From NCBI GenBank assembly GCA_002393965.1, contig DGSL01000026.1, positions 192,199 to 256,198 on the forward strand: a DNA stretch of 64,000 nt. Reading direction: 5' to 3'. The notes below the pieces were generated by a model. It was not told the origin of the DNA and did not search any database. It saw only the letters and a program-made list of their open reading frames with translations. This document shows, piece after piece, positions 6,063 to 63,260 of this stretch (positions are counted from its first letter, which is position 1; the number at the start of each line of letters is the position of its first letter). The position numbers and the translations under genes are program-made. The stretch is from Bacteroidales bacterium UBA4363 (GTDB lineage Bacteria > Bacteroidota > Bacteroidia > Bacteroidales > Paludibacteraceae).

Positions 6063-6142
6063 AACCTTTTTGTTAAGCCAGATGAGCAAAGTCAAACTTG
6101 TTTGAACTTTGCCATGGCGAAAAAAGGACTAATGAAATTGAA
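6063..6142 (+). repeat. 80-bp nested palindromic repeat, copy 1
   Basis: Copy 1 starts AACCTTTTTGTTAAGCCAG, contains an inner dyad (GCAAAGTCAAAC against GTTTGAACTTTGC), then CCATGGCG and a second AAAAGG arm. It lies two bases after the rluD stop. Unlike the other copies no same-strand gene follows; its ATG (6114) opens a 25-residue frame ending at 6191. Other copies are at 8205, 59251, 63102 and 63181. Confidence 0.9.
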
Positions 6143-6355
6143 GGGAAAACATCGACAATTAAGTTCGAGGGAAATTGTCGAGTCGCTGTAATAGGGAAAG
6201 TCTAATGTTCCATGCGAAGTTTATGAATGAGGAAATTTCGAAGGGACAGGTATTCGGAGTATGGACATAGCAGAAAATGTTATGAGGTCGCTTTTGGCTG
6301 TGTTAGAATACAGACGAGAAAAGACAGACGTACTTCTTCTTCCGAAATTTAAAAA
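6143..6355. other. Spacer between repeat copy 1 and the fkpA-like terminator
   Basis: No gene is seen. CGACAATT (6153-6160) can pair with AATTGTCG (6173-6180), but no T tract follows. Confidence 0.4.
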
Positions 6356-6391
6356 AAAGCGAAATATCTTTTGAGGAAGATATTTCGCTTT
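6356..6391. terminator. Terminator at the end of the isomerase pair
   Basis: A perfect 15-bp stem (AAAGCGAAATATCTT with AAGATATTTCGCTTT, six-base loop) lies 20 bases beyond the stop of the minus-strand isomerase. It is flanked by A-rich and T-rich sequence and could act in both directions. Confidence 0.85.
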
Positions 6392-6410
6392 AAATGAAGA
6401 AGTCGTTAAT

Positions 6411-7280
6411 TTATTTGCTTTTTATTTCAAGCAGTTCGATGTCGAAAATAAGAGGAGAAAATGGTGGTATGACAAATTGACCATCAGGACTTTGTATTCC
6501 CTGTTCGCCGTATCCTAATTGATAGGGAACGTATAGTTTCCATTTAGAACCTACTGGCATGATTGTTAGAGCCTCTTTCCATCCTTTAATTAAATTCCCT
6601 ACTTGAAAAGTGGCAGGACCATTCCCGTGTTGAGTATTGCTGTCTATTATAGTGCCATCTGGCAAGGTCAAGGTATAATTGCAAGATACAATATCCTTCT
6701 CCGTGGCGTGGGTTTTACCATTCCCGGCTTTGATTACCTCATATTGTAAGCCGCTGCTTGTCGTAATTATCCCTTTTTTCTTTCCATTTTGAGACATAAA
6801 TGCCTCCGCGCTTTTCTTGTTTTGTCCGTATTGTTTGATGATTTGAGAGGACTGCGCTTTCTGGAATTGCTCTCGAAGGTAGCTATCTGCATCTTCAGCA
6901 GTGATCAATACGTCCTTCTGGTCAACCGCTTGTTTTAGTGCAGCAACGACAAGTTCTTTGTCAATTGGCAATACACTGCTATCTTTTTCAGCTTGAGCGA
7001 TGGAGGCAGCAACCTGTAATCCGATCATATAGAAGCGAAGCGAAGAGTCATTCTTTTGATCTAATCCCGCCTGCAAGCCTGCCATAAACGCATTGTAATT
7101 TTCTCCTTTTGTCTCTTTCTCCAGCGCTTTAGAGACATTTTGCCCTTCCATGACACCGTAGGCATAACTAATAGAGTCTTTCTGAGTTTTGAGTTCGTTA
7201 ACCGGTTTGTTGCAGGAGCAGAAAACAAAGCCTCCGATAAAGAGACTTAAAAGGACTTTTGTCATTGTTTTATTCATCAC
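6411..7280 (-). CDS. FKBP-type peptidyl-prolyl isomerase, lipoprotein
   Basis: The protein isomerises X-Pro bonds and assists folding outside the cytoplasm. The N-terminus has a lipoprotein signal with lipobox FCSC (Cys about residue 23), so it is probably anchored in a membrane facing the periplasm. An FkpA-like N-terminal dimerisation region (SYAYGVMEGQNV) is followed by the FKBP domain from about residue 175 (SGLQYEVIKAGNGK ... YQLGYGEQG ... PLIFDIELLEI). It lies 12 bases from a paralogue of the same type on the same strand, so the two are probably one operon and a tandem duplication. Confidence 0.9.
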   Translation of the reverse strand: MMNKTMTKVLLSLFIGGFVFCSCNKPVNELKTQKDSISYAYGVMEGQNVSKALEKETKGENYNAFMAGLQAGLDQKNDSSLRFYMIGLQVAASIAQAEKDSSVLPIDKELVVAALKQAVDQKDVLITAEDADSYLREQFQKAQSSQIIKQYGQNKKSAEAFMSQNGKKKGIITTSSGLQYEVIKAGNGKTHATEKDIVSCNYTLTLPDGTIIDSNTQHGNGPATFQVGNLIKGWKEALTIMPVGSKWKLYVPYQLGYGEQGIQSPDGQFVIPPFSPLIFDIELLEIKSK

Positions 7281-7292
7281 TTTTTTATTAAT

Positions 7293-7988
7293 TTATTTTA
7301 CTTCCAATAATTCCACATCAAAGATGAGGGTTGAGTACGGAGGTATTAGACCTGCCGGTTGGCTACCATATCCAAGTTCTGAAGGAATATACAAGCGGTA
7401 TTTGGACCCGGCAGACATCAATTGCAACCCTTCTGTCCATCCCGGAATGACACGATCGAGACGAAATTCAAGGGGTTCGTTTCGGGCATAGGAACTATCA
7501 AAGACTTTGTCGTCTATCAGACGCCCCTCATAGTTAACTTTCACGGTAGAAGTTTTGGTTGGTTTTACTCCCGAACCTTCTTTCAGTATTTCGTATTGTA
7601 ATCCAGATGCTGTTGTCGTAATGCCAGGTCTTTTCTTGTTTTCTTCTAGGTACGCCTTGTTTTTCGCAATCTGTTCAGCTGTTTTCTTTTGTATTTGCAT
7701 AGTCATGAATGTATTGACGATACTGTCTGCCATTTCTTTTGACATATGTTGTGTTTCGCGCTTTAATGTAGTGGATAGTCCTTGTGAGATAAGGTCTGCA
7801 TTCTGTTGTTGACCTAATGTCTCGTCCAATTGACGGCGCAAATCATAACCAACCATCACGCCTATAGCATAATTAACGGAATCGGACTGATTTGAAAGAG
7901 AGACCTCTTTTGGCGATTCTCTTTTTGCGGCAGAAATATCGACTGCTAATGTCAGGAGAATCAAGGCGGCAATAAGAATTTTCTTCAT
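7293..7988 (-). CDS. FKBP-type peptidyl-prolyl isomerase, exported
   Basis: At 231 residues this is the shorter paralogue and the first gene of the pair. It has a cleavable signal peptide (MKKILIAALILLTLAVDISA), the N-terminal helical dimer region (VNYAIGVMVGYDLRRQ) and a C-terminal FKBP domain (SGLQYEILKEGSGVKP ... ELGYGSQPAG ... STLIFDVELLEV). No lipobox is seen, so it is probably a soluble periplasmic folding helper. A near-consensus -7 element (TATCTTCG on the minus strand near 8056) may be its promoter. Confidence 0.9.
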   Translation of the reverse strand: MKKILIAALILLTLAVDISAAKRESPKEVSLSNQSDSVNYAIGVMVGYDLRRQLDETLGQQQNADLISQGLSTTLKRETQHMSKEMADSIVNTFMTMQIQKKTAEQIAKNKAYLEENKKRPGITTTASGLQYEILKEGSGVKPTKTSTVKVNYEGRLIDDKVFDSSYARNEPLEFRLDRVIPGWTEGLQLMSAGSKYRLYIPSELGYGSQPAGLIPPYSTLIFDVELLEVK

Positions 7989-8156
7989 TTTATCAAATGA
8001 TTTTCGGTTTTATAGTTCTTAAAAATACGGCACAATCAAACAGAGAAGTATTGCGAAGATACGTATAAATCGTAGGATAGAGAATGACAAAACATTTTTT
8101 TTAAATCTAATAGCCTTTTTAGTGTTTTTTAGTGTTTTAAAACCGCTTGTTTTTAG

Positions 8157-8165
8157 TATTTTTGC
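8157..8165 (+). promoter_or_regulatory. Putative -7 element for purH
   Basis: TATTTTTGC fits TAnnTTTG; the -33 box is degenerate. Transcription from here would place repeat copy 2 entirely in the purH leader. Confidence 0.45.
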
Positions 8166-8204
8166 AACCTACTATAATAATTTTCTGAAAGAAAGACGAA
8201 ATAG

Positions 8205-8284
8205 AACCTTTTTGTTAAGCCAGATGAGCAAAGTCAAACTTGTTTGAACATTGCCATGGCGAAAAAAGGACTAATGAAATTGAA
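8205..8284 (+). repeat. 80-bp nested palindromic repeat, copy 2 (purH leader)
   Basis: Nearly identical to copy 1, with one T-to-A-type change in the right arm of the inner dyad (GAACATTGCC instead of GAACTTTGCC). Its internal ATG at 8256 is in frame with purH and no stop intervenes, so it could supply a 12-residue N-terminal extension (MAKKGLMKLNYK). Confidence 0.9.
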
Positions 8285-8291
8285 CTATAAA

Positions 8292-9821
8292 ATGGCAGAT
8301 AGCAAAAAAATCAAGACAGCGCTTGTTTCTGTTTTCCACAAGGACAACAAATTAGAACAGATTATAAACAAACTGCATGCAGAGGGAGTCTCTTTTATTT
8401 CTACAGGAGGGACAAAAAAATTCATTGAAAGTCTGAATATCCCTTGTCGTTCTGTTGAGTCCCTAACTACCTACCCATCTATTTTGGGCGGACGGGTCAA
8501 AACACTCCATCCAAAAATATTCGGAGGAATACTTGGTCGCCGAGAAAATGAATCTGACCGGGAACAGATGAGTCAGTATGAAATCCCAGAAATTGATTTG
8601 GTGATTGTTGACCTTTACCCGTTTGAACAGACAGTAGCCGATGGCGCGACAGAGCAGGAAATCATCGAAAAGATTGATATTGGAGGCATTTCGTTGATAC
8701 GAGCTGCGGCAAAGAATTTTGCAGATGTGATTATTGTCGCAAGCCAGGCTCAATATGCACCGATGTTGCAACTTCTGGAAGAGAAGGGGGCGATTTCAAA
8801 TATGGAAGATAGAAAGTGGTTCGCAAAGGAGGCATTTGCGGTATCTTCTGCTTATGACTCTCATATCTTTAATTGGTTTGACAAGGGATTTGATTCAGCA
8901 TTTCGATTCCCAGTCAATGGGGTGAAACATCTGCGCTATGGAGAAAATCCTCATCAGAGCGGATCTTTCTATGGGGCTTTTGATGATCTGTTTGTGCAAA
9001 TTCATGGGAAAGAGATCTCTTATAATAACATCTTGGATGTTGATGCTGCTGTGGCATTGATATCAGAGTTTCCTGATGATATAACGTTTGTTATCATGAA
9101 GCATAACAATGCTTGTGGTGTCGCCACTCGTAAAACGTTGATAGAAGCATGGAAGGCGGCCCTCGCAGGAGATCCGGTCTCTGCATTTGGCGGTGTTTTT
9201 GTCACGAACGCTAAGATAGATAAGGACTCAGCAGAAGAAATCAACAAGTTGTTCTTCGAGATTCTTATTGCTCCTGGATTTGATGAGGATGCGTTGGAGA
9301 TTCTTGAACAAAAGAAAAACCGTATTCTCCTCATTCAAAAACAGAAGTGCCTTGCAAAAAAACAATGTCGTTCCGTTTTAAACGGAATGCTTGTTCAAGA
9401 TCGAGATATGTCAATCCAAACAGAATCAGATTTGGAGCCTATGACTCAGAAGAGTCCTACTCCGTCAGAAATAAAGGATATGCTTTTTGCAAATAAAATC
9501 GTAAAGAATTCAAAGTCAAATGCCATCGTCCTTGCAAAGAACGGACAACTTTGCGCTTCTGGCGTAGGACAAACTTCTCGAGTTGACGCATTGAAACAGG
9601 CAATAGAGAAGGCAAAAACTTTTAACTTTGATTTGAATGGAGCCGTAATGGCTAGCGATGCATTTTTCCCTTTCGGAGATTGTGTGCAATTGGCGCATGA
9701 GGCTGGTATCACGGCAGTTATACAACCAGGAGGGTCTGTTCGTGACCAGGAATCAGTAGATTATTGTGACAAGCATGGGGTCGCAATGGTAAAAACGGGA
9801 ACGCGTCACTTCAAACATTGA
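8292..9821 (+). CDS. purH: Bifunctional AICAR formyltransferase / IMP cyclohydrolase
   Basis: PurH performs the last two steps of purine synthesis: formylation of AICAR by 10-formyl-THF, then ring closure to IMP. The N-terminal cyclohydrolase half shows ISTGGTKKFIE and GGRVKTLHPKIFGGIL; the C-terminal transformylase half contains MKHNNACGVAT and DAFFPFGDCVQLAHEAG. From the ATG at 8292 it has 509 residues, the usual length. The frame is open upstream through repeat copy 2 to ATGs at 8256 and 8244, so a longer product is possible. It heads the rod-shape gene cluster. Confidence 0.96.
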   Translation: MADSKKIKTALVSVFHKDNKLEQIINKLHAEGVSFISTGGTKKFIESLNIPCRSVESLTTYPSILGGRVKTLHPKIFGGILGRRENESDREQMSQYEIPEIDLVIVDLYPFEQTVADGATEQEIIEKIDIGGISLIRAAAKNFADVIIVASQAQYAPMLQLLEEKGAISNMEDRKWFAKEAFAVSSAYDSHIFNWFDKGFDSAFRFPVNGVKHLRYGENPHQSGSFYGAFDDLFVQIHGKEISYNNILDVDAAVALISEFPDDITFVIMKHNNACGVATRKTLIEAWKAALAGDPVSAFGGVFVTNAKIDKDSAEEINKLFFEILIAPGFDEDALEILEQKKNRILLIQKQKCLAKKQCRSVLNGMLVQDRDMSIQTESDLEPMTQKSPTPSEIKDMLFANKIVKNSKSNAIVLAKNGQLCASGVGQTSRVDALKQAIEKAKTFNFDLNGAVMASDAFFPFGDCVQLAHEAGITAVIQPGGSVRDQESVDYCDKHGVAMVKTGTRHFKH

Positions 9822-9866
9822 TTTTAAAAGGAAATAATTAAGCAACAAAGAAATAAAATTAACTAT

Positions 9867-10898
9867 ATGGGACTTTTTTCAGGACTTCTCCCTTATACGC
9901 AGGAAATTGCTATAGATCTCGGAACGGCCAACACAATCATTATGTGTAATGATAAAATTGTCGTAGATGAACCGTCTGTTGTGGCCCTTGACCGCAGGAC
10001 TGATAAACTAATTGCAATCGGGGAACAGGCACGTCAGATGCATGGTCGAACACACGAAAATATACGTACGGTCCGCCCGTTGCGTGATGGTGTCATTGCT
10101 GACTTCTATGCTGCAGAACAGATGATTAGAGGTATGATAGGTATGATAAACAATAAACCCCGATTGTTTACTCCTGCACTTAAGATGGTTGTTTGTATTC
10201 CTTCTGGGTCAACAGAAGTTGAGATTCGTGCTGTTCGTGACTCTTCAGAACACGCGGGGGGACGTGATGTTTATATGATTTATGAGCCAATGGCTGCTGC
10301 AATAGGTATCGGTATTGATGTTGAGGCTCCAGAAGGAAATATGATAGTTGACATTGGAGGAGGAACGACAGAGATTGCCGTAATTTCGCTGGGGGGAATA
10401 GTTTCTAATAAGTCAATTCGTATTGCCGGAGACGATCTTACGGAAGACATTATTGATTACATGGGACGTCAGCATAATATTCGAATAGGAGAGCGAACGG
10501 CAGAACTGATTAAAATTAATGTTGGTGCAGCCCTTACTGATTTAGAAGATGCGCCAGATGATTATATTGTTCACGGACCAAATCGAATGACTGCTCTCCC
10601 TTTGGAAGTCCCAGTCTCTTATCAGGAAATTGCTCATTGTCTTGAGAAGTCAATATCGAAAATTGAAGCGGCAGTCCTCAGTGCTCTGGAAGCAACGCCG
10701 GCGGAGTTATATGCCGATATTGTTAAGAAAGGAATTTATTTGGCAGGTGGAGGCGCCCTGTTGAGAGGATTGGACAAGCGTTTGTCCGACAGAATTAATA
10801 TCCCATTCCATATTGCAGAAGACCCGTTGCGTGCTGTTGCTCGAGGGACAGGCGTCGCTTTAAAAAACGTTGATAAGTTCAACTTCCTTATGCGATAA
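9867..10898 (+). CDS. mreB: Rod-shape determining actin homologue
   Basis: A bacterial actin that polymerises under the inner membrane and positions the elongasome. At 343 residues it is full length. ATP-binding motifs are clear: phosphate 1 (DLGTANTIIM), phosphate 2 (VDIGGGTTEIAVISLGG) and the adenosine loop (YLAGGGALLRGLDK). The N-terminal MGLFSGLLPYTQ precedes the first strand. It lies 45 bases after purH and is followed by a strong hairpin before mreC, which could lower expression of the downstream genes relative to mreB. Confidence 0.97.
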   Translation: MGLFSGLLPYTQEIAIDLGTANTIIMCNDKIVVDEPSVVALDRRTDKLIAIGEQARQMHGRTHENIRTVRPLRDGVIADFYAAEQMIRGMIGMINNKPRLFTPALKMVVCIPSGSTEVEIRAVRDSSEHAGGRDVYMIYEPMAAAIGIGIDVEAPEGNMIVDIGGGTTEIAVISLGGIVSNKSIRIAGDDLTEDIIDYMGRQHNIRIGERTAELIKINVGAALTDLEDAPDDYIVHGPNRMTALPLEVPVSYQEIAHCLEKSISKIEAAVLSALEATPAELYADIVKKGIYLAGGGALLRGLDKRLSDRINIPFHIAEDPLRAVARGTGVALKNVDKFNFLMR

Positions 10899-10933
10899 AG
10901 AGTTGGTAAGGATAGTATAGACAAAATATATTG

Positions 10934-10972
10934 ACCATTAGGAGCAGGTTCTTGGCTCCTAATGGTGTTTTA
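10934..10972 (+). terminator. Terminator or attenuator between mreB and mreC
   Basis: A perfect 12-bp stem (ACCATTAGGAGC with GCTCCTAATGGT, 9-base loop) is followed by GTTTTAT. No promoter is visible between it and mreC, so partial read-through is likely. Confidence 0.75.
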
Positions 10973-11001
10973 TAGACGAATTCAATAATCAGGTCTTAAA
11001 G

Positions 11002-11928
11002 GTGCGATCGCTCGTTGATTTTTTCATCAAATATGGAATCATCCTTTTTTTCCTTTTGTTGGAAGGGATTTCTTTCTTTTTGGTTGTAAAAAACAATTAC
11101 TTTCAACGGAGTAGTTTCTATACAAGCTTCGCAGAAGTGTCCAATCGACTTTTTCTCATTCGGGAGGGTGTCTCTTCTTATTTCCGACTTGGATCAACAA
11201 ATGAACAACTTGCCCAAGAGAATGTAGAACTGAGAAATCGTGTTTTTGAGTTGCAGAATCAAGTCCAGATGTTAAAAGGAGGTAACGGATTAAGAACTGT
11301 TACGATAGAATATCCACAGGTGCTATCCGCTGACTCTGATTCCATTAAAAGAAAGGATCCCAAACTTGAGTTTACTTGCTTTTCTGCTCGCGTAATTAAT
11401 AATACAACAGGTCATCTGCAGAATTATATCACTTTGAATCGAGGATATTCTGATGGTATTCGAGAAGATATGAGTGTAATTTCGGCAGGAGGAGTGGTTG
11501 GAGTGGTTATGGCTGTTTCAGATCATTTTTCCATTGTCATGCCAGTTCTCAATTCTAAAATGCAGGTTTCTTGTAAAATCTTGGCAGATAAAAAGGTGCA
11601 GGAAAGTTTGGGCAATATAAAGGATATTGGCTCCTTAGTCTGGCCTGGAGGGAATCCGGAATATGCCACGATGACGAATGTTCCCCGACATGTTCCTATA
11701 AAAAAGGGTGATATTGTTGTAACATCTGGATATTCAGACTTTTTCCCGGAAGGAATTCGGGTGGGATCTATTGAGGAGTTCCATCCGGCTGAGGATGATA
11801 ACTATTTTGACATAAAGGTGCGACTTTCTGTTAAATTTAGTGCTTTGGAGTATGTGGAGGTGCTGAATTATAAAAATCGGGCAGAACAGGCGGCTCTTGA
11901 GGCGAAGACAAGAACAGAAGAAAAGTAG
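11002..11928 (+). CDS. mreC: Rod-shape determining protein MreC
   Basis: A bitopic inner-membrane protein of the elongasome. The start is GTG at 11002. One N-terminal membrane helix (IILFFLLLEGISFFLVV) is followed by a coiled-coil region (EQLAQENVELRNRVFELQNQ, about residues 69-90) and the periplasmic beta-barrel domain (GYSDGIREDMSVISAGGVVG; KGDIVVTSGYSDFFPEGI). MreC activates PBP2-RodA, encoded downstream. Confidence 0.93.
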   Translation: MRSLVDFFIKYGIILFFLLLEGISFFLVVKNNYFQRSSFYTSFAEVSNRLFLIREGVSSYFRLGSTNEQLAQENVELRNRVFELQNQVQMLKGGNGLRTVTIEYPQVLSADSDSIKRKDPKLEFTCFSARVINNTTGHLQNYITLNRGYSDGIREDMSVISAGGVVGVVMAVSDHFSIVMPVLNSKMQVSCKILADKKVQESLGNIKDIGSLVWPGGNPEYATMTNVPRHVPIKKGDIVVTSGYSDFFPEGIRVGSIEEFHPAEDDNYFDIKVRLSVKFSALEYVEVLNYKNRAEQAALEAKTRTEEK

Positions 11929-11937
11929 TAATGCAAG

Positions 11938-12450
11938 ATGAACGCAAATCCGTTACGTTATTTATTGTTTTTTGTTGTACTTGTGTTAGTACAAGTTCTG
12001 ACTCTTAACAACGTACATTTGTTCGGATATGCATCTCCATATCTATACATTTGGTTTATCATTTTACTCCCCTATGCTACACCTCGCTATCTTACCCTCT
12101 TTTTGGGATTTTTGTTGGGAGCAATCCTTGATCTTATGAATGCTACACCAGGCATTCATGCTTTTGCAACAACTCTTGCTGCTGGTGTTTCTATTCTTGC
12201 TTTGCCATATTTTATGCCACATGAGGACGAACGAGACAGAGTTCATATTATTCCCTCAATGCGATCTTTGGGAATAGGCGCCTTTGTCAAATACTCCGTC
12301 TTAATTGTCTTTGTTCATCATTTTGCGCTCTATGCAATAGAGGCATTCTCATTCAACCATTTTTTCCATTTATTTTTTCGTGTCATCGTCTCAACGTTGT
12401 TTACGCTTTTGTTGATTCTATCATTGGAATATTTTAAGATGAAGCGATAG
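11938..12450 (+). CDS. mreD: Rod-shape determining protein MreD
   Basis: A 170-residue polytopic membrane protein with about five hydrophobic helices and the typical loop FLLGAILDLMNATPGIHAFA. MreD completes the MreBCD complex. It starts 10 bases after mreC and is followed by mrdA. The family is weakly conserved, so identification leans on context. Confidence 0.88.
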   Translation: MNANPLRYLLFFVVLVLVQVLTLNNVHLFGYASPYLYIWFIILLPYATPRYLTLFLGFLLGAILDLMNATPGIHAFATTLAAGVSILALPYFMPHEDERDRVHIIPSMRSLGIGAFVKYSVLIVFVHHFALYAIEAFSFNHFFHLFFRVIVSTLFTLLLILSLEYFKMKR

Positions 12451-12509
12451 ATTGGCTGAGAAAATAGGGAAACATATCAGATAGACAAGAATCACATAAT
12501 CTATGTGCA

Positions 12510-14366
12510 ATGGCAATAGGGAATGACATTCACATTGGTCGTAAGAACGTAATCATCACATTGATGGTTATTGTTTTCGTTGTTTATATTCTTCGTCTTC
12601 TTCAGTTGCAGATATTCGATGAAACATATAAAAATTCTGCTGATAACAATGCCTTCCTTCACAAAACGCGATATCCTGCTCGTGGACTAATTTATGACCG
12701 GAATGGTAAACTCTTAGTATATAATAAGCCCGCATATGATGTCATGGTCATCATAAATGAAGTTCATGACCTTGATACGATAGACTTTTGTCGGACGGTG
12801 AATATTACTAAAGATCAGTTCTGCTCTCTTATTGAGAAGATGAAAAGGCAACCTGGATATACGCCATACACGCCACAACAGCTCATAGCCCAGTTATCTA
12901 TAGAAGAATATGCCGTTCTACAAGAAAAACTCTTCCGCTTCCCTGGTTTTTATATTCAGGACAGAACGCTTCGGGAATATACTTATCCTTGCGCCGCACA
13001 TGCGTTGGGTTATGTCAGCGAGGTGACTGAGCAGGAGATAGAGGAAAACCCCTATTATAAGCGTGGAGATTACATAGGTCGAAGCGGAATAGAAAAACAA
13101 TACGAAAGTGTATTGTGCGGAATAAAAGGCTATGAAATTCTTCTTCGCGATTCTCGGGGACGTTTAAAAGGAAAATATCAAGATGGGAAATTGGATAGAG
13201 CTTCTGTCTCTGGCAAAAATATACAGTTGTCTTTAGATATTGAACTCCAGCAATATGGAGAGAAGTTAATGCAAAATAAAATTGGCAGCGTTGTGGCAAT
13301 CGAGCCTTCAACGGGAGAAGTCCTCGCTTTTGTTGCATCCCCTGCTTATAACCCATCAGATCTTGTTGGTCGCGATAGGAGTAGGAATTTCCCTCTACTA
13401 AATAAAAATCCGCTTAAGCCATTGCTCGATCGCCCTCTTCAAGCCCGTTATCCTCCAGGATCTACATTCAAAGTCCTTAATTCTCTTATCTTTCAGCACG
13501 AAGGGATAATTACGCCGGCAACTCGTTATGGATGTGCACATGGTTTTTCATACGGAGGCCTACATGTTGGATGTCATGGACACCCATCCCCACTTGACAT
13601 GCGCCACTCTCTTCAAACTTCATGTAATGGATACTATTGTCATGGATTGCATGATATGTTAGATACTCATCGACGCAAGTATGGTTCTGTACAAGAAGCT
13701 TTGAATACGTGGAAAAATCATGTGGTTTCATTTGGGTTCGGTTACAAGACAGGTATTGATCTTCCTCATGAAAATAGAGGATATATTCCGAATGCGAGTG
13801 TATATGATAAAGTGTATGGAACAAAGGGATGGAGTGGTGTGACAATCATATCCATCGCCATTGGCCAAGGAGAAGTTCTCGCAACGCCGATTCAGGAAGC
13901 AAATTATGTTTCTGCAATAGCAAACCATGGATGGTGGATAACTCCACATGTTGTAAAGAAAATATATGGAGACACCATTCCATCAAGTCTATTGGAAAAA
14001 CATGTAACTTCTGTGGATCCAAAATTCTTCGATGCGTCAATTGATGGAATGGAAATGGCAGTACAAGGAGGAACTGCGCGTGTCGCACAATTGCCAGGAG
14101 TTCGTGTCTGCGCAAAAACAGGAACGGCACAGAATCCTCATGGGAAAGATCATTCTGTTTTTATCGCCTTTGCACCTCGGGAAAATCCTAAAATTGCCAT
14201 TGCTGTTTTCGTCGAGAATGCCGGATTTGGTGCAACATGGGCTGGCCCTATTGCTTCTCTCATGATGGAAAAATATCTTACAGGAGGTATTGCGGATAAT
14301 AGGAAATATTTAGAGGAACGTATGGTTAATGCAAATCTGATTCCGACAAATCCAAAGGAACGGTAA
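12510..14366 (+). CDS. mrdA: Penicillin-binding protein 2 (elongation transpeptidase)
   Basis: A class B PBP that cross-links peptidoglycan during cell elongation, paired with RodA. The 618-residue protein has an N-terminal membrane anchor (about residues 14-33), a PBP dimerisation domain with RGLIYDRNGKLL, and the transpeptidase domain with the three active-site motifs: STFK (Ser about 318), SCN (about 370) and KTGTAQ (about 536). All catalytic residues are present. It precedes rodA by 65 bases. Confidence 0.97.
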   Translation: MAIGNDIHIGRKNVIITLMVIVFVVYILRLLQLQIFDETYKNSADNNAFLHKTRYPARGLIYDRNGKLLVYNKPAYDVMVIINEVHDLDTIDFCRTVNITKDQFCSLIEKMKRQPGYTPYTPQQLIAQLSIEEYAVLQEKLFRFPGFYIQDRTLREYTYPCAAHALGYVSEVTEQEIEENPYYKRGDYIGRSGIEKQYESVLCGIKGYEILLRDSRGRLKGKYQDGKLDRASVSGKNIQLSLDIELQQYGEKLMQNKIGSVVAIEPSTGEVLAFVASPAYNPSDLVGRDRSRNFPLLNKNPLKPLLDRPLQARYPPGSTFKVLNSLIFQHEGIITPATRYGCAHGFSYGGLHVGCHGHPSPLDMRHSLQTSCNGYYCHGLHDMLDTHRRKYGSVQEALNTWKNHVVSFGFGYKTGIDLPHENRGYIPNASVYDKVYGTKGWSGVTIISIAIGQGEVLATPIQEANYVSAIANHGWWITPHVVKKIYGDTIPSSLLEKHVTSVDPKFFDASIDGMEMAVQGGTARVAQLPGVRVCAKTGTAQNPHGKDHSVFIAFAPRENPKIAIAVFVENAGFGATWAGPIASLMMEKYLTGGIADNRKYLEERMVNANLIPTNPKER

Positions 14367-14431
14367 TCCAAAAAGGATAAGAAGGATGCTTTGTACTTTC
14401 TTTCCAAAGTGAAAACTTGAGTGATGTAAAC

Positions 14432-15931: not shown

Positions 15932-15939
15932 AGCATTTT

Positions 15940-54737: not shown

Positions 54738-54757
54738 CACGTTTCCGTGTCAAGGTT
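54730..54757. terminator. Bidirectional terminator of menE and tRNA-Gln
   Basis: A perfect 12-bp stem (AACCTTGACACG with CGTGTCAAGGTT, loop TTTC). On the minus strand it is followed by T7, a canonical terminator for tRNA-Gln; on the plus strand the menE stop codon (54735-54737) lies in its left arm. Confidence 0.85.
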
Positions 54758-54767
54758 CTCTTCTTGG

Positions 54768-54838
54768 TTGTCTTGCCCGGACTCGAACCAGGACAAACAG
54801 TACCAAAAACTGTTGTGCTACCATTACACCACAAGACA
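54768..54838 (-). tRNA. tRNA-Gln (anticodon TTG)
   Basis: A full cloverleaf on the minus strand: acceptor TGTCTTG/CAAGACA, D-arm GTGTAATGGTAGCAC, anticodon stem ACAGT/ACTGT with loop TTTTGGT (anticodon TTG), T-arm CCTGG-TTCGAGT-CCGGG, discriminator A. Genomic CCA follows at 54767-54765, unlike the other two tRNAs in the window. Confidence 0.97.
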
Positions 54839-54914
54839 ATCCGATGGGCAACGCTGAACCGACAGGTTACCCTTGCCCTGCGCTTGGAGACAGACGCCCC
54901 TGCGCAGATGCGTC

Positions 54915-54945
54915 GCAAAGATAGCGATTTTTATTACTTGGCAAG
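54915..54945 (-). promoter_or_regulatory. Putative promoter for tRNA-Gln inside the tyrS 3' end
   Basis: Minus-strand CTTG (54945-54942), 18 bases, TATCTTTGC (54923-54915). The -33 box lies within the last codons of tyrS. Confidence 0.55.
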
Positions 54946-56229: not shown

Positions 56230-56287
56230 TTATTTAGCGTCAATGAAAAAAAAAAGATAGAATAGTGTTTCTGCACAAAAAACGGCA

Positions 56288-56320
56288 GCAAAGTTAACGA
56301 AAAGCACTGGCTTTGACAAC
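56288..56320 (-). promoter_or_regulatory. Putative promoter for tyrS
   Basis: Minus-strand GTTG (56320-56317) then TAACTTTGC (56296-56288), spacing 20. The start near 56283 leaves a leader of about 55 bases. Confidence 0.45.
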
Positions 56321-56330
56321 TCCCCGTCTC

Positions 56331-57404
56331 CTATCCGACGATGTCCAGACCGTCCAGCATCTCTGTGTAGAGACCGATGGCGGACTCGATCTCCTTTCGG
56401 CAGATGTATTCGTCCGCCGTGTGCGAACGCGACGATTCGCCCGGACCCAGTTTCAGGGACGGGAACGGCATGAGGGCCTGGTCGCTCAGCGTCGGCGAAC
56501 CGTAGGACTCCAGACCCATCGAGTGACCGCGACGGACAATCGGATGGTCCTTCCCGATTGACGAGGAGTTCAGACGCGTCGAGCGCTCTCTCACCTCGCA
56601 CGCCACATGCTGACGGATCAGCGTCAGCAATCCCACGTTGTCGTAACAGTCGTTCGTGCGAACGTCAACGGTGAACTCACAACGGTCTGGGATGACGTTG
56701 TGCTGCGTTCCCGCTTGGATCATCGTGACCGTCATCAGCACCGCACCCAGCGTCTCGGAGACTTTCGGGAATTGGTACGTCCGGAACCATTCGATGTCGC
56801 GCAACGCTTTATAGATCGCATTGTCGCCTTCCCTGCGTGCCGCATGGCCTGCCACTCCCTTCGCCGTGCAGTCAAGGACCATCAGCCCCTTCTCTGCGAC
56901 CGCCATACGCATGCCTGTCGGCTCGCCCACGATGGCTACGTCTATCTTCGGCAACTCACCCAGCAGACGCTCCATCCCGTTTCTCCCCGATACCTCCTCC
57001 TCACACGAGGCGGCCCAGATCAGACGGTATTTCTGCTCCTTCTGACACAAGTGCGTGAAGACCGAGAGAAGACTTACCAGACCACCTCCGCAGTCATTGC
57101 TGCCCAGACCGTAGATACACCCGTCGATTTCCTCCGCGCCGAACGGGTCTTTCGTCCAGCCCGAGACAGGCTTCACCGTGTCAAGGTGCGCATTCAGCAT
57201 GACGGTCGGACGACCGTCCGACTCTTCGTCACCCTCCCACGATTGCAGATAGACGTTGTTGCCGCAACGGCTGGGATGCAGTCCGCGGTCTTTCAGCCAC
57301 GATTCAAGGTAGTCGGCAACTTCCGTCTCGTTGCGCGAGTAGGAGGGGATGCGGATCAGGTGCTGCAACAGTTCGGTGGCTTCCTTGGCAGTGATGGGTT
57401 TCAT
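56331..57404 (-). CDS. argE: M20-family deacylase of arginine synthesis
   Basis: A zinc hydrolase removing the N-acyl group (acetyl or succinyl) from ornithine or citrulline. Metal-binding motifs are VMLNAHLDTVKP, GLGSNDCGGGLVSLL and SCEEEVSGRNG (catalytic Glu pair). From the ATG at 57404 it has 357 residues; the longer frame to 57479 overlaps argB. It is the last gene of the proB-proA-x-argF'-argB-argE run, and its substrate should follow that of argF'. Confidence 0.9.
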   Translation of the reverse strand: MKPITAKEATELLQHLIRIPSYSRNETEVADYLESWLKDRGLHPSRCGNNVYLQSWEGDEESDGRPTVMLNAHLDTVKPVSGWTKDPFGAEEIDGCIYGLGSNDCGGGLVSLLSVFTHLCQKEQKYRLIWAASCEEEVSGRNGMERLLGELPKIDVAIVGEPTGMRMAVAEKGLMVLDCTAKGVAGHAARREGDNAIYKALRDIEWFRTYQFPKVSETLGAVLMTVTMIQAGTQHNVIPDRCEFTVDVRTNDCYDNVGLLTLIRQHVACEVRERSTRLNSSSIGKDHPIVRRGHSMGLESYGSPTLSDQALMPFPSLKLGPGESSRSHTADEYICRKEIESAIGLYTEMLDGLDIVG

Positions 57405-57453
57405 GACGGTGTTTTTCTGTTTTTTTGATGTATCCGGATGCGAAACCCTCTCC

Positions 57454-58221
57454 CTATCGGATGACCGTTCCGCTGCCACGCCCCAGTTCCGAGGCCTGTG
57501 TGATGACGACTTGTTTTACGCCCGCGTCAATGGCGGAGAACGAGTTCTCTAATTTCGGAATCATGCCGCCCTGGATGATGCCTTCTCTCGTGAGGCGGTC
57601 GAAGGAGCTTCGGGTCAGTTCCGGGATGACGCTGTCCTCGTCGTTCTCGTCCATCAGGACGCCTTTCTTCTCGAAACAGTAGGTCAGCGTCACGTCGAAG
57701 TGGCGGCTCAGCGCCTTGGCAGCCTCTCCCGCAATCGTGTCCGCATTGGTGTTCAGCAGGTGACCCTCTCCGTCGTGCGTCAGAGGAGCCAGGACCGGGA
57801 CGATGCCCTTGCCGATCAGGTCCGCAAGGATTTCGGACTGTACGCTGCGTACGTCGCCCACGTAACCGTAGTCCACGTCTTTTACCGGACGCTTCGTGCT
57901 GAGCATGTAGCCCAGGTCCGCACCCGTCAGACCCAGCGCATTGATGCCCAGGGACTGCAGCGAGGCAACGATGTTCTTGTTCACCAGTCCGCCATAGACC
58001 ATCGTGACGACTTTCAGCATCGCCGCGTCGGTGATGCGGCGACCGTTGACCATTTTGCTCTCAATGCCCAGTTGCGACGCTATGCTCGTCGCGCTGCGAC
58101 CGCCACCGTGTACGAGGACTTTCCGACCCTCTAACGACGAGAATGTGCGGAGCAACTCGGCAAGACTGGCGGATTCTTCGACAATCTTACCGCCTACCTT
58201 GATGATGTTCAGCGATTCCAT
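57454..58221 (-). CDS. argB: N-acyl-glutamate kinase
   Basis: An amino-acid-kinase-fold protein of 255 residues phosphorylating N-acetyl- or N-succinylglutamate. Motifs are IIKVGGKIVE, VLVHGGGRSATSIASQLGI, LGLTGADLGYML and the C-terminal QVVITQASELGRGSGT. It lies between argF' and argE. In Bacteroidales with succinylornithine carbamoyltransferase this kinase may use the succinylated substrate; the sequence alone does not decide. Confidence 0.94.
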   Translation of the reverse strand: MESLNIIKVGGKIVEESASLAELLRTFSSLEGRKVLVHGGGRSATSIASQLGIESKMVNGRRITDAAMLKVVTMVYGGLVNKNIVASLQSLGINALGLTGADLGYMLSTKRPVKDVDYGYVGDVRSVQSEILADLIGKGIVPVLAPLTHDGEGHLLNTNADTIAGEAAKALSRHFDVTLTYCFEKKGVLMDENDEDSVIPELTRSSFDRLTREGIIQGGMIPKLENSFSAIDAGVKQVVITQASELGRGSGTVIR

Positions 58222-58272
58222 GTGTGCGATGCGTAATAGGTATGGTTTTTCTGTTTGGATCTCTTCCTTTTT

Positions 58273-59226
58273 TTACAGCGACTCCAGGATGCGCTTGAGC
58301 ACTACCTGCGCCGAGATCTCTCGGTTCGCCGCTTCCTGTACCACCAGCGAACGGGGACTCTCGATGACGTCGTCCGTTACGATCATGTTCCGACGCACCG
58401 GAAGACAGTGCATGAAGAACGCATTGTTGGTCAGTTTCATCTTTTCTGTCGTCACCGTCCACGACAGGTCCTTGGAGAGGATCTTGCCGTAGTTTGGATC
58501 GGCATACGCCGCCCAGTTCTTGGCATAGATGAAGTCCGCTCCCTCAAAGGCCTTGTCCTGGTCATATTCCACACGGGCGTTACGCGCAAATTGAGGGGCT
58601 AACTCATAGCCGTGAGGGTGCGTGATCACGAAGTCCACGTCGGCCTCGTTCATGAAGTCGGCGAAACTGTTAGGCACTGCTTGTGGCAGAGCACGCGGAT
58701 GTGGTGCCCATGACAGCACCACCTTCGGACGGCTTTTCTCTTTGTGCTCCTCAATGGTGATCAGGTCCGCAAAGGCCTGCAGCGGATGCACCGTGCCGCT
58801 CTCCATCGAGAAGACAGGACGGCCGCTCAGGCGGATGAATTGGTTCAGGATCGTCTCCTGATAGTCGAAGTCTTTGTCCTCGAATCGGGCGAAACTGCGC
58901 ACGCCGATTACGTCACAGAAGTTGCCCATCACCGGGACGGCTTCCAGCAGGTGCTCGGACTTGTCGCCGTCCATAACCACCCCGCGTTCCGTCTCCAGTT
59001 TCCACGCTCCCTGGTTGATGTCAAGCACCATCGTGTTCATTCCCAGGTTCATCGCCGCTTTCTGTGTGGACAGACGCGTGCGCAACGAGGAGTTGAAGAA
59101 GACCAGCAACGCTGTCTTGTTCTCTCCCAGGTGTTTGTAGCCGAAGCGGTTCTTCTTCACTTCTAAGGCCTCTTCTACGGCGGCATGAAGGTCGCCCAGG
59201 TCTTTGACGTTCGTGTAGGTTCTCAT
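58273..59226 (-). CDS. argF': N-succinyl-type ornithine carbamoyltransferase
   Basis: The enzyme carbamoylates N-acylated ornithine. The carbamoyl-phosphate site reads FFNSSLRTRLSTQKAAMNLG, and the ends HCLPVRRNMIVTDDVIESP and NQGAWKLETERG match the Bacteroides fragilis SOTCase group. The residue that selects acetyl or succinyl substrate (Pro90 in B. fragilis, Glu92 in Xanthomonas AOTCase) is Ser90 here (MDGDKSEHLL). The start at 59226 overlaps by ATGA the stop of a mini-ORF from repeat copy 3; 317 residues. Confidence 0.92.
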   Translation of the reverse strand: MRTYTNVKDLGDLHAAVEEALEVKKNRFGYKHLGENKTALLVFFNSSLRTRLSTQKAAMNLGMNTMVLDINQGAWKLETERGVVMDGDKSEHLLEAVPVMGNFCDVIGVRSFARFEDKDFDYQETILNQFIRLSGRPVFSMESGTVHPLQAFADLITIEEHKEKSRPKVVLSWAPHPRALPQAVPNSFADFMNEADVDFVITHPHGYELAPQFARNARVEYDQDKAFEGADFIYAKNWAAYADPNYGKILSKDLSWTVTTEKMKLTNNAFFMHCLPVRRNMIVTDDVIESPRSLVVQEAANREISAQVVLKRILESL

Positions 59227-59279
59227 CGTTTTCGTTGATTTATGTTTTTGTTCATTTTCAATAGTCCTTTTCTCGCCAT
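59223..59279 (-). other. 18-codon mini-ORF supplied by repeat copy 3
   Basis: It starts at the repeat's internal ATG, reads MARKGLLKMNKNINQRKR and stops at a TGA that shares ATGA with the argF' start codon, an arrangement typical of coupled translation. Whether it is translated is unknown. Confidence 0.35.
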
Positions 59280-59330
59280 GGCAAAGTTCAAACAAGTTTG
59301 ACTTTGCTTATCTGGCTTAACGAAAAGGTT
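59251..59330 (-). repeat. 80-bp nested palindromic repeat, copy 3 (argF' leader)
   Basis: A minus-strand copy starting one base after the stop codon of the upstream exported-protein gene and ending 25 bases before argF'. It differs from copy 1 at a handful of positions. The inner dyad GCAAAGTCAAAC/GTTTGAACTTTGC and the CCATGGCG core are intact. Confidence 0.92.
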
Positions 59331-59331
59331 C

Positions 59332-59919
59332 TTATTCTCTCATAAATACGCTCATCATGTCGCTGAAGTCCTTCAGGTAGAAGTCCAGCACGTCCAGCGC
59401 ATCGACATGACCGTCTCTTCGTTTGATGTACATCACCCGACGCTCCATGCGTACCATCTCAGCGTCCCAACGCTCGCGCGTGCTGTAACGGAAGTGCTGC
59501 CCGTTCTTCTCCATCTTCTTCGCCGCTTCCTCTTCCGTGTCCACTCGGCCGAATCGCTCCGTGCTCTTGCCGAAGTATTTGGTCAGGTAACGCACCGAGA
59601 CCGTGTCCTGGAGAAACACCGTAGTACGCACCAGGCGGTTCCCGAGAAAGAAGGAATGGATGCTGTCGGTCTTCGTCTCGTCTATCGTGACGCTGTACGG
59701 ACACGTGTACACTTCTACAATCTCTGGCCAGCGGTAGAACGATGTCTTCTGCAGGTGAAACGCCATGCTGTACTGACCGATCGGTGCCTTGAACTTGAAC
59801 TCCCGGAAGCCGGGTCTTAGGTCCAGGGCCTCCACACTGCCCGAACGTTGATGACTCTGACCCATGACCGGGGGCAGACCCATCACCAACATAAGGAGAT
59901 ATGTCATCACGCGCTTCAT
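59332..59919 (-). CDS. Exported protein of unknown function between proA and argF'
   Basis: A 195-residue protein with a Sec signal peptide (MKRVMTYLLMLVMGLPPVMG) and no lipobox. The mature part has alternating beta-like stretches and a charged C-terminal region (VRMERRVMYIKRRDGHVDAL). I do not recognise the family. It is 9 bases after proA on the same strand, so it is cotranscribed with amino-acid genes although it is predicted to be periplasmic or outer-membrane-associated. Confidence 0.65.
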   Translation of the reverse strand: MKRVMTYLLMLVMGLPPVMGQSHQRSGSVEALDLRPGFREFKFKAPIGQYSMAFHLQKTSFYRWPEIVEVYTCPYSVTIDETKTDSIHSFFLGNRLVRTTVFLQDTVSVRYLTKYFGKSTERFGRVDTEEEAAKKMEKNGQHFRYSTRERWDAEMVRMERRVMYIKRRDGHVDALDVLDFYLKDFSDMMSVFMRE

Positions 59920-59928
59920 CGTTCTCTC

Positions 59929-61191
59929 TTATTTTGGACGGGTCTGACCGTTTCCGCGGATCAGCCATTTGTAACTCGTCATCTCGGGAAGCGCCATCGG
60001 ACCGCGCGCATGTAGTTTCTGCGTCGAGATGCCGATCTCAGCACCCATTCCGAACTGACCGCCGTCCGTGAACGACGTGGGTGCATTGACATAGACACAC
60101 GCGGCATCCACCTTGCGCTCAAAGGCAAGGGCATTCGCTTCGTTTTCCGTGACGATGGACTCGCTGTGACCCGAATCGTAACGCGTGATATGGGCAATGG
60201 CTTCGTCAACCGAACCAACCGTCTTGATGTTCATGCGGTAACTGCCGTATTCCGTGCCGTAACTCGTCGGTGTCAGACCGACGAGCAACCCATCCGGATA
60301 ATGGCAGCGAAGTGCCTGCTCCGACTCCGGATCGGCTTCTATCACCACGTTCGACTCCGCCAGCGGAGCACACAGCGAAGCGAGGTCCGATAGGCGCGAA
60401 CGGTGTACGATGAGCGTGTCCAGGGCGTTGCATACGCTCACGCGCCTCGTCTTCGCGTTATGCACGATCGCCTTTCCTTTTTCCAGGTCGCCGTATTCGT
60501 CGAAGTACGTGGACACGACACCAGCACCAGTCTCGATGACCGGCACGCGGCTGTTTTCTTTGACGTAACGGATCAGGCCGGCTCCGCCACGTGGGATGAT
60601 CAGGTCTACACATTCCGTGGCTCCCATCAGTTCCGCTGTCGCCTCACGACCCGCAGGCATCAGGTGCACCGTGTGCTCGTCCACGCCGTTTTCTCTCAGC
60701 ACCCCTTTGATGAGCCCGACAATCGCACGGTTGCTCTCGTAGGCGTCCGATCCGCCCTTCAGCACCGACGCGTTGCCGCTCTTGAAACACAGCGAGAAGA
60801 CGTCGAAGCTTACGTTCGGACGCGCCTCGTAGATGACACCGATCACACCGAACGGGACACTCACCTTCTTCAGTTCCAGACCGTTCGGTAGGGTCCGCTG
60901 CTCAAGAACGCGGTCCAGCGGACTTGGCAGCGAGGCAACCTTACGCATGTCGTTCGCGATGTCCTCCAGGCGCTTCTCGTTCAGCAGCAGACGGTCGTAC
61001 ATCGGGTTCTCCGGGTCCATGCGCGACAGGTCCTTGACGTTTGCTTCCAGGATCTCGGACTTGTGGCTTGCGATACGCTCCGCAAGTGCCTCCAGCACTT
61101 CGTTCTTTTTCCCCTCTCCAATCAGGTTCAGGGCTCTTGACGCCGCTTTGACGGCGACTCTCCAGTCCGTTGTCTTTGTCTCTTGGTTCAT
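59929..61191 (-). CDS. proA: Gamma-glutamyl phosphate reductase
   Basis: The second proline-synthesis step, reducing glutamyl phosphate to the semialdehyde. The aldehyde-dehydrogenase-like protein (420 residues) contains [20 protein letters not shown], the catalytic-cysteine segment [17 protein letters not shown] and [19 protein letters not shown]. It follows proB after 61 bases and precedes the exported protein gene. Confidence 0.97.
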
Positions 61192-61252
61192 GTGATGTTT
61201 ATATGGGTTTCGTTCCGGATATTCAAATTCTGTGCCGCGGGAGTCTCTCTTT

Positions 61253-62338
61253 TTACTCTATGTAGAGGAAGTCGTAGTGCACCAGCGGCTTCTCGTTTTT
61301 CTGACCGATCAGCGGACGCGCCTCTTCGGAACTGTATTGCGTACGGCCAATGCCTATCTGTATCCCTTCCGGGTCAAGGATGCGCACGATGTCGTCTTTC
61401 TCGAAGTCTCCGCGAATCTCGGTGACGCCTACGAGTAGCAGGCTCCGGGCCTCATCGCCGCGAAGGGCGGCGGCGGCTCCCTCGTTCACGAGAATTTCAC
61501 CTTTGGCAAATCCGTCGCTGTGTGCGATCCATTTCTTTACGCTCGAAATCGACTCCGCAGGCTCAAAACGCGTGCAGACAACGTCCTTTGCTGTCTCCAA
61601 CACGTCGTGAAGGATCTGGTCTTTCTTGCCGTTGGCAATGACTACCTCGATCCCTTCGTCTGCCACCTTGCGGGCTATGTTGCATTTGGTCAGCATCCCG
61701 CCACGACCGAAGTCCGATTTGCCCGTCTGGATGTAGTCGGTCAGGTCGGCTCCGTGACGCACACGGCGGATGACCTCCGAGGTCGGGTCATTCGGATGGC
61801 CCGAGTAGATGCCGTCAATGTTGCTCAGGATCACCAGACTCTCCATGTCCATCATCGTGGCAATGAGGCCGGAAAGTTCGTCATTGTCCGTAAACATCAA
61901 TTCCGTCACCGAGATCGTGTCGTTCTCGTTGACGATGGGCAACACACCGTGACTCAGCATCGTGGATATGCAGTTCTTCTGGTTGAGGTAGTGCTGGCGC
62001 GTGCCGAACGTCTCTTTCATCGTGAGCACCTGACCGCATACGATGCCGTGCTTGCGGAACAACTCGTAGTAGCGGTTGATGAGTTTCGCCTGACCCACGG
62101 CGGAGAAGAGCTGACGCTGTGAGACCGAGTCCAGCTTGTCCTGGACCTTCAACTCGTTGCGACCGAAGGCAACGGCTCCGCTCGAGATCAGGATGATCTC
62201 CAGACCGTCTTTCTTCAGACCGGCTATCTCATCGACCAGGGCGGACATCCGGTCCGTATCTATCGTCCCGTCACGCCGGACGAGGACGTTGCTGCCTATC
62301 TTGATGGCAATTCGCTTGTGTCGGTATCCCGAGGCCAT
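61253..62338 (-). CDS. proB: Glutamate 5-kinase
   Basis: The first proline-synthesis step. The kinase domain ([39 protein letters not shown]) is followed by a C-terminal PUA domain (about residues 275-350; [29 protein letters not shown]). At 361 residues it is a full-length two-domain form. It heads the proline/arginine run; a -7 element lies upstream. Confidence 0.97.
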
Positions 62339-62363
62339 TTCGGTTTCTGTTTTATGGAAAATA

Positions 62364-62371
62364 CAAAGTTA
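62364..62371 (-). promoter_or_regulatory. Putative -7 element for the proB operon
   Basis: Minus-strand TAACTTTG, 26 bases before the proB start. No -33 box is evident. Confidence 0.4.
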
Positions 62372-62400
62372 ATGGATTTTTTCATTTTATGGCGCCACGA

Positions 62401-63096
62401 TCACAGCAGGCCGTTCTCCGAGAAACTGTAATATTGATTGTGCGCAATGATGATGTGGTCCAGCAGGCGGATGTCCATCAGGCGCGCCGCCTCTTTGATC
62501 TTGCGCGTGAGCGCTTCGTCGTCCCTGGACGGCGATGGGTTTCCCGACGGGTGGTTGTGAGCCACCGCGATGTTCTGAGCCTTGCAGACCAACGCCTCGC
62601 GCAGGATCTTGCGGACGTCGGCGATGGTTGACGTGTAACCCCCTTCGCTGATGCGCTCGTTTTTGATCAGGTGATGCGACTGGTCGAGGTACGCCACCCA
62701 GAATTCCTCATGGTCCTTGTTGTTCAGCACGCTGCGGAACACCTCGACCATCTGGTCTGTCTGTGTGATCTGTGTCCGTTTCTGCACACCGCAGAGCGCG
62801 CGGCGGTTGCCCAGTTCGAAGGCGGCTGCCAACGTGATGGCTTTCGTACGACCCAACCCCTTGATCGACGTCAGCTCGTCTATGCTTTTCCGCCCGAGGG
62901 CATCCAGACTGTTGCCGCTGCTGCTCAATAGCTGCCGCGACATCTCCAGAACCGACATCCCCGCCGTTCCGGAGCGTAGCAGGATGGCAAGTAGCTCCGA
63001 GTCCGAACAAGCCTGCGCCCCCTTCTCCATGAGTTTCTCTCTTGGCATGTCATCATGAGCCATGTCCTTGATCTTCATGTGGTGCTTTTCTGACAT
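62401..63096 (-). CDS. radC: RadC-family JAMM protein
   Basis: The C-terminal JAB/MPN+ domain has the metal motif AHNHPSGNPSPSRDD; the N-terminal region carries a UPF/helix-hairpin-helix segment (IDELTSIKGLGRTKAITLAA). RadC proteins were once linked to repair but their function is unsettled. Starts at 63096 (MSEKHHMKIKD) and 63078 (MKIKDMAHDD) are both possible; the latter overlaps by ATGA the stop of the repeat-derived mini-ORF. Two tandem repeat copies form its leader. Confidence 0.92.
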   Translation of the reverse strand: MSEKHHMKIKDMAHDDMPREKLMEKGAQACSDSELLAILLRSGTAGMSVLEMSRQLLSSSGNSLDALGRKSIDELTSIKGLGRTKAITLAAAFELGNRRALCGVQKRTQITQTDQMVEVFRSVLNNKDHEEFWVAYLDQSHHLIKNERISEGGYTSTIADVRKILREALVCKAQNIAVAHNHPSGNPSPSRDDEALTRKIKEAARLMDIRLLDHIIIAHNQYYSFSENGLL

Positions 63097-63131
63097 AAGC
63101 GTTCATTTTTCAATAGACCTTTTCTCGCCAT
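63075..63131 (-). other. 18-codon mini-ORF supplied by repeat copy 4
   Basis: It begins at the ATG inside copy 4 (MARKGLLKNERLCQKSTT) and ends at a TGA sharing ATGA with the possible radC start at 63078. It has the same length as the argF' mini-ORF, and the distance from its ATG to the next start is again 53 bases. Translation is unproven. Confidence 0.35.
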
Positions 63132-63182
63132 GGCAAAGTTCAAACAAGTTTGACTTTTCTCATCTGGCTTAACGAAAAGGTT
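63102..63182 (-). repeat. 80-bp nested palindromic repeat, copy 4 (radC leader)
   Basis: One of two tandem minus-strand copies; it shares its first two bases with the end of copy 5. One extra A near the end (AAAAATGAA) shifts the downstream frame. Confidence 0.92.
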
Positions 63183-63260
63183 CATTTTCAATAGACCTTT
63201 TCTCGCCATGGCAAAGTCCAAACAAGTTTGACTTTGCTCATCTGGCTTAACGAAAAGGTT
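63181..63260 (-). repeat. 80-bp nested palindromic repeat, copy 5
   Basis: The upstream member of the tandem pair. With copy 4 it forms one open frame in which a 26-residue unit (from NLFVKPDE to MARKGLLKM) is repeated. One inner-arm base differs (GGACTTTG for GAACTTTG). Confidence 0.92.

Follow-up and report, generated by a model that had tools for sequence, protein, structure and literature searches.

GAA-flanked palindromic repeats of Bacteroidales: probably a transposase-less mobile element moved in trans as a single-strand hairpin

A stretch of 64,000 nucleotides from the assembly of Bacteroidales bacterium UBA4363 (Paludibacteraceae; contig DGSL01000026.1, positions 192,199 to 256,198), here called the window, contains five copies of a palindromic repeat of ~80 bp, which raises the question of whether such units serve the genes beside them or are traces of a mobile element. 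A previous account made from the letters alone (the sequence-only reading) had proposed an element placed in gene leaders, mobile or domesticated, that provides an RNA structure and a translation start. We favour, with moderate confidence, the view that the repeats are a non-autonomous palindromic mobile element of Bacteroidales that is targeted to GAA and moved in trans as a folded single strand. All five copies lie at the positions and on the strands first described (Table 1). Direct reading of the sequence and a covariance model, which recovers them with 78.5 to 94.4 bits, agree on this; moreover, a core pattern of 18 bases, allowing up to 3 mismatches, matches the window five times, at these copies, whereas none of 100 shuffles reaches five matches. 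The outer arms, the inner dyad with its one-base bulge and the palindrome GCCATGGC are present as described, with small exceptions (ACATTGC in copy 2, GAAAAG instead of GCAAAG in copy 4 and TTTGGAC in copy 5). DNA folding of the window copies gives z values from -3.0 to -4.9.

Mobility is supported by the comparison of orthologous loci with and without a copy, which yielded three pairs of filled and empty sites with the unit inserted directly 3' of GAA or CAA. At the first site, a unit (C15:89518) interrupts an AraC-like gene whose ortholog is uninterrupted in a species of the same genus (G004, 64% identity). The flanks of this gene are in frame across a single GAA and the inserted unit shifts the frame; at least this copy is therefore not domesticated. 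At the second site, a unit of Proteiniphilum acetatigenes DSM 18083 (L274:1334-1415) is missing from the orthologous place in an uncultured Proteiniphilum (G346; 85-89% DNA identity), the insert following CAA and ending in GAA. The third unit lies directly 3' of GAA within an IS1380-family transposase gene on plasmids of Bacteroides, Parabacteroides and Phocaeicola, and intact relatives exist; of 40 matching records, 23 span 80% or more of the query, and no resistance genes are listed in the 10-kb plasmid stretch read. Comparison of a further unit (L274:12600) with relatives did not separate into a filled and an empty site. Near-identical copies also occur at unrelated loci, and together with the three sites and the GAA target they support the mobile part of the initial proposal.

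The ends of the unit are well defined. Within its ~79 bp, the unit has a two-storey hairpin with a bulge, followed by a 12-nt tail that contains a mini-hairpin, and then GAA. It is asymmetric: the left GAA directly adjoins the foot of the hairpin, and the right one lies 12 nt away from it. No inverted repeats were seen at the unit termini, and the unit is too short to encode a transposase. Among 66 aligned units of the UBA4363 genome, the left boundary triplet is GAA in 44, CAA in 7, AAA in 6 and TAA in 1 (58/66 together). The base after the left GAA is part of the hairpin, since its partner lies in the far arm; the pair is C-G or, in 8 of the 45 distinct rows from Proteiniphilum, T-A. The right end is GAA in 34 of the 45 distinct Proteiniphilum units; the base that follows varies (C in 15, T in 12, A in 6 and G in 1), as host sequence would be expected to give. 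The Proteiniphilum set comprises 52 matches including 7 duplicates (one locus represented twice, or an orthologous locus that shares its flanking sequence), and end counts use the 45 distinct ones. Tail, GAA and one base together measure 16 nt in 33 of the 42 Proteiniphilum units with a recognised arm; tail lengths in UBA4363 are mixed, many model hits being shortened by a tandem neighbour. Subtypes A, B and C have the same ends and different cores, and fuzzy core matching assigns 24, 11 and 17 of the 66 aligned units to them, with 14 others.

The arms of the hairpin covary in both sets of units. Over the 20 model pairs, 95.8% of the cells are paired across the 66 UBA4363 rows (57 of them distinct) and 94.1% across the 52 Proteiniphilum rows (45 of them distinct), compared with 35-65% and 32-50%, respectively, in controls with slid partners. 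Double changes occur in 12 and 16 of the 20 pairs, respectively, and all five pairing measures beat 500 shuffles in each set, save the number of pair types in Proteiniphilum. The tail folds into a mini-hairpin of 4 bp whose loop is mostly GAA; this mini-hairpin is 94.9% paired (44-68% in slid controls) and shows double changes in 3 of its 4 pairs.

The covariance-model search of the genome and its relatives revealed a high-copy family. In the UBA4363 assembly (1.78 Mb, 31 contigs, 88.75% complete), blastn gave 34 matches, and the model, built from 12 units and scored on 150 of 1229 candidates, gave 70 units at E <= 0.001. These form 43 arrays, 16 of which hold two to six units on the same strand; in one of the 16, two units are ~40 bp apart. 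An array at C18:14599-15071 mixes subtypes in the order B, B, C, C, A, C.

These features suggest how the element may move. As the compared sites show, a unit inserts 3' of GAA or CAA; its own terminal GAA would recreate the target at the right edge, and later units would insert at the renewed GAA in the same orientation. Because the unit ends in GAA and each insertion would restore the target, head-to-tail, mostly gap-free arrays of mixed subtypes would be the expected outcome. A nuclease that reads structure (HUH-type or similar) and is supplied in trans would move the unit as a folded single strand, cutting after GAA at both ends. Three features favour processing as a single strand, as in the IS200/IS605, REP (repetitive extragenic palindrome) and IS91 systems: the ends are not inverted, the hairpin is asymmetric, and a short, fixed motif marks each end. 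The unit is probably a transposase-less element akin to REPs or to miniature inverted-repeat transposable elements (MITEs), moved in trans as a single-strand hairpin. A more specific version, in which an order-wide element with a self-renewing GAA target is moved by a structure-reading nuclease that is neither Y1 nor Y2, is one that we put forward only tentatively.

A conventional MITE, moved by a DDE transposase with a 3-bp target duplication at GAA or CAA, would account for the GAA that flanks isolated units on both sides and is present at the empty sites. However, the 15-30 bp terminal inverted repeats of MITEs were not seen at the unit ends, the hairpin is placed asymmetrically between the two triplets, and the repeated triplet is nearly always GAA or CAA. 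Moreover, Pfam identified no transposase family among all 20 genes between array pairs less than 4.2 kb apart. Four of these genes, including an 823-aa gene framed by divergent arrays, match no Pfam family. An autonomous copy between close array pairs was thus rejected; no parent insertion sequence with the ends of the unit was recognised among these 20 genes, and a whole-genome half-site scan was not made. Altogether, we regard a conventional MITE as unlikely.

The enzymes of two single-strand systems were also considered. REP elements mobilised by REP-associated tyrosine transposases (RAYT, of the Y1 type) resemble the present family as high-copy palindromes with a bulged stem and a short motif at the foot, and the RAYT family PF01797 is common in relatives (68/101) and present in one copy-bearing genome (G343). 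However, PF01797 is absent from the incomplete UBA4363 assembly and from 4 of the 5 copy-bearing named genomes. No core or tail match was found within up to 1.5 kb of 20 RAYT loci of relatives, and 9 RAYT flanks read by eye contained no such unit, several of them having other, shorter palindromes. A RAYT partner was rejected because PF01797 does not track with the repeats, and we consider this origin quite improbable. In five of the loci (L060, L061, L063, L066 and L068), the RAYT genes of relatives are framed by short palindromes of their own, for example GTCCCTAACGGGAC and CCCCGTAGGGG.

IS91 and IS801 are full insertion sequences with a Y2 transposase, and the unit could be a miniature relative moved by such a rolling-circle enzyme. 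GAAC is among the IS801 targets and is also the tetranucleotide at the left end of IS801 (PMC3189936). The IS91 targets GAAC and CAAG are partly matched by the GAA(C) and CAA(C) sites of the unit, the base after the right GAA being variable. However, the Y2/IS91 family PF04986 was detected in 2 of 32 genomes, and not in UBA4363: one carrier (G341) has 4 units, and the other (G004) gave a weak match with an internal stop and no unit was found in it. PF04986 does not track with the repeats either, so an IS91 partner was rejected, and this origin appears to us slightly more improbable still than a RAYT one.

Several points weigh against the explanation favoured here. The mobilising enzyme was not found in the Pfam-model tests of Y1/RAYT and Y2/IS91, which would miss a divergent enzyme and which, for UBA4363, covered an incomplete assembly. 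The same GAA...GAA footprint would also be expected from a DDE transposase that duplicates 3 bp of its target. The arrays show no orientation bias with respect to GC skew (20/43) or local gene strand (26/43), and hence no replication-strand signature of single-strand insertion. As regards structure, the number of pair types in Proteiniphilum was reached by 136 of the 500 shuffles; the alignments behind the pair counts were fitted to the model structure, which favours that structure; the test of the tail hairpin used 15 distinct, hand-chosen tails, and Proteiniphilum tails match the mini-hairpin only partly or with its register shifted. Copy 1 folds about as well on one strand as on the other. 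Among the insertion sites, the first empty site depends on an ortholog of only 64% identity, the second has a one-base ambiguity, and a fourth (L272:7511), compared with relatives, gave no clean empty site. Finally, movement is inferred from these site comparisons and was not observed.

The other explanations concern a function of the repeat beside genes. Recruitment upstream of genes as a leader element, which would supply an RNA structure and a translation start, was suggested by the window itself, where four of the five copies lie upstream of same-strand genes. Pfam agrees with the earlier naming of the same-strand genes after copies 2 to 5 as purH, an ornithine carbamoyltransferase-like (OTCase-like) gene downstream of copy 3, and radC downstream of copies 4 and 5; moreover, an open frame (8244-9821) begins within copy 2 and continues into purH. 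Starts and stops were taken from our own open reading frame (ORF) caller, and intergenic [GC]AAC sites served as controls. Across the genome, 2 of the 43 arrays have a same-strand start called between -25 and +30 nt from their right end, compared with 9.0% of 525 control sites; with three more called inside the unit (purH, the OTCase-like gene and C7:70682), there are at most 5/43 (binomial p 0.34). Within 0..100 nt, the count (12/43, control 17.7%, p 0.066) is above the control, not clearly so, and this control disregards the inserted length. CCATG is present in 42 of the 66 UBA4363 units and absent from 24, CTGAGGC standing at the same place in 15; among the 45 distinct Proteiniphilum units it is present in 5 and absent from 40. 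The conserved open frame claimed for the copies is only weakly borne out: some open frame is present in 38 of the 66 aligned UBA4363 units, against ~44% in a Markov resample of copy 1, and the reading frame is not conserved across subtypes. With starts directly at the right end not clearly more frequent than at control sites, an ATG that is often missing and one copy that breaks the AraC-like gene, the proposed leader function was abandoned, and we give it very little credence.

The opposite end of the arrays was examined in the same way. Insertions retained at gene ends could act as 3' untranslated region (3'-UTR) devices, the hairpin stabilising or terminating the upstream mRNA, a role compatible with mobility. 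As noted in the sequence-only reading, copies 1 and 3 begin one or two bases past a stop codon, copy 1 starting 1 nt past that of a pseudouridine-synthase gene (Pfam), with the next gene on the opposite strand. Of the 43 arrays in UBA4363, 13 begin between -25 and +30 nt from a same-strand stop, and 7 begin no more than 3 nt from one; the corresponding rates at 418 control sites are 8.1% and 1.4%. However, this was not repeated in P. acetatigenes (5/31 and 0/31; 6.8% and 0.8% of 1709 control sites), and a stop-codon preference was dropped as a general rule. Tolerance of insertions at gene ends explains the placement in UBA4363 equally well, and a 3'-UTR device seems to us an improbable explanation. 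Convergent gene ends stand at the right end of 3 of the 43 arrays.

Some units or related sequences are part of gene ends. At L146:3027-3188, a two-unit array supplies the stop of a ribonucleotide reductase gene (PF02867), and the protein end EPFR is derived from the unit. On the minus strand of L225:3800-4010 (G014), two related tandem units (DEQSKLAYFAMPK and a variant) lie in frame, as judged by eye, at a protein C-terminus. The last codons (VEFVKQ stop) of a gene named OmpA-like, with its frame, by eye coincide with the left arm of a related unit in L033 (G046) and in P. acetatigenes (L272:2849-2926). A related core also forms the end of what seems by eye to be the same gene in two genera (L038 and L039; NKYSASENKDKLV stop), which suggests an old, kept insertion.

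Beyond UBA4363, the family was followed at three levels. With blastn, 11 of 101 genomes were positive, including UBA4363, and none of 5 of the same genus. With no more than 15 candidates scored in each genome, the covariance model detected at least one unit in 58 of 300 genomes of the family, UBA4363 included; these genomes represent 21 of 33 genera. A 29-base core pattern was found in 63 stretches of GTDB genomes whose record titles name Bacteroidales taxa (the taxonomy of Colivivens was not looked up); the core is conserved and the outer arms vary by lineage. Ten named genomes were picked for holding the core pattern and 150 candidates were scored in each: P. acetatigenes DSM 18083 has 112 units, the uncultured Proteiniphilum 118, Proteiniphilum X52 75, Prevotella SUG404 57, G342 54, G348 42, G343 16, Prevotella P2-180 and G347 4 each, and Alistipes G349 1. 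In viral contigs, the core pattern gave one match and the left-half pattern none; one record of a phage collection matched, and the stretch around its unit reads like the plasmid copies. The core alone gave no match in plasmids.

We also compared the unit with known repeats. REPs and bacterial interspersed mosaic elements (BIMEs), associated with RAYT (TnpAREP), are likewise short, high-copy, gene-less structured palindromes with a bulged stem, species-specific subfamilies and clusters. However, the present unit is ~80 bp long and two-storey with GAA-marked ends; in place of the foot tetranucleotide GT[AG]G (GTAG or GTGG) it has GAA followed by C, 44 of the 66 units starting with GAA, and at the Pfam level no Y1 gene flanked by the repeat was found in the 88.75% complete assembly. 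Integron attC sites have RYYYAAC...GTTRRRY boxes that pair with each other, whereas AAC recurs at the two ends of our unit in direct rather than inverted orientation. Compared with our unit, the BrickBuilt MITE of Porphyromonas gingivalis has a greater length, inverted ends and an internal minisatellite; the two are set apart here by description, not by sequence. Like our unit, BrickBuilt is a small intergenic repeat, in another Bacteroidales species (PMC10969869). Rickettsia palindromic elements sometimes lie inside coding genes (PMC10969869 and PMC3733652), which recalls the in-frame tandem pair at L225; here, the one insertion well inside a gene that was compared with an ortholog breaks the gene. 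CGTC-tagged REPs are palindromic repeats of several phyla including Bacteroidetes, for which the authors report no dedicated transposase; their stems measure 8-9 bp, and they carry a CGTC tag and a short tail that in most cases fits CCA (PMC3733652). In contrast, our unit has 20 model pairs, GAA at both ends and a 12-nt tail; it shows no unpaired CGTC or CCA-like tail, its tail reading NCTA..T-GAA. The earlier statement that it is not a named element holds within the limits of the search: no Rfam family matches the window at gathering thresholds, two weak matches in 6000-8400 (E up to 1) lie far below the cut-off and on neither copy there, and no description was found in open-licence literature.

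Other palindromes share part of this structure. A second family, TTTTGGAGCAAGCCGAG ... CCCAAAATGTC (L131, L133 and L145), has a similar inner core, and units of the GAA-targeted family sit within its copies in the UBA4363 genome (L131 and L133). A further repeat class of other Bacteroidales (L034, L040, L044 and L193), also with a similar inner core, carries AAATATAGTG close to one of its ends; the opposite end has TATATTATGCAAATATA in L034 and L044.

The window copies are listed in Table 1. Copies 4 and 5 share one GAAC, which the covariance model divides between them. Elsewhere in the window, GC content climbs from ~0.40 to 0.56-0.60 between 32000 and 48000, and GC skew switches from positive to negative.

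Table 1. Copies of the repeat in the window, with the parts of copy 1
Feature	Positions	Strand	Model score (bits)	Description
Copy 1	6062..6143	+	94.4	Subtype A
Copy 1, left GAA	6062-6064	+
Copy 1, main hairpin	6065-6127	+
Copy 1, 12-nt tail	6128-6139	+
Copy 1, right GAA	6140-6142	+
Copy 2	8204..8285	+	90.0	Subtype A; upstream of purH
Copy 3	59250..59331	-	93.3	Subtype A, CG arm variant; between a 195-aa ORF and the OTCase-like gene
Copy 4	63101..63183	-	81.5	Subtype A, CG arm variant; 3' unit of a head-to-tail pair, upstream of radC
Copy 5	63184..63261	-	78.5	Subtype A, CG arm variant; 5' unit of the pair with copy 4

How bacterial palindromic repeats spread when no transposase is visible is an open question, raised for the CGTC repeats in PMC3733652. 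More than 100 units of the family described here are present in P. acetatigenes DSM 18083; the target and the ends of the unit are defined, empty sites are available, and one unit has inserted naturally into a Bacteroides plasmid. What moves such repeats thereby becomes directly testable in laboratory strains.

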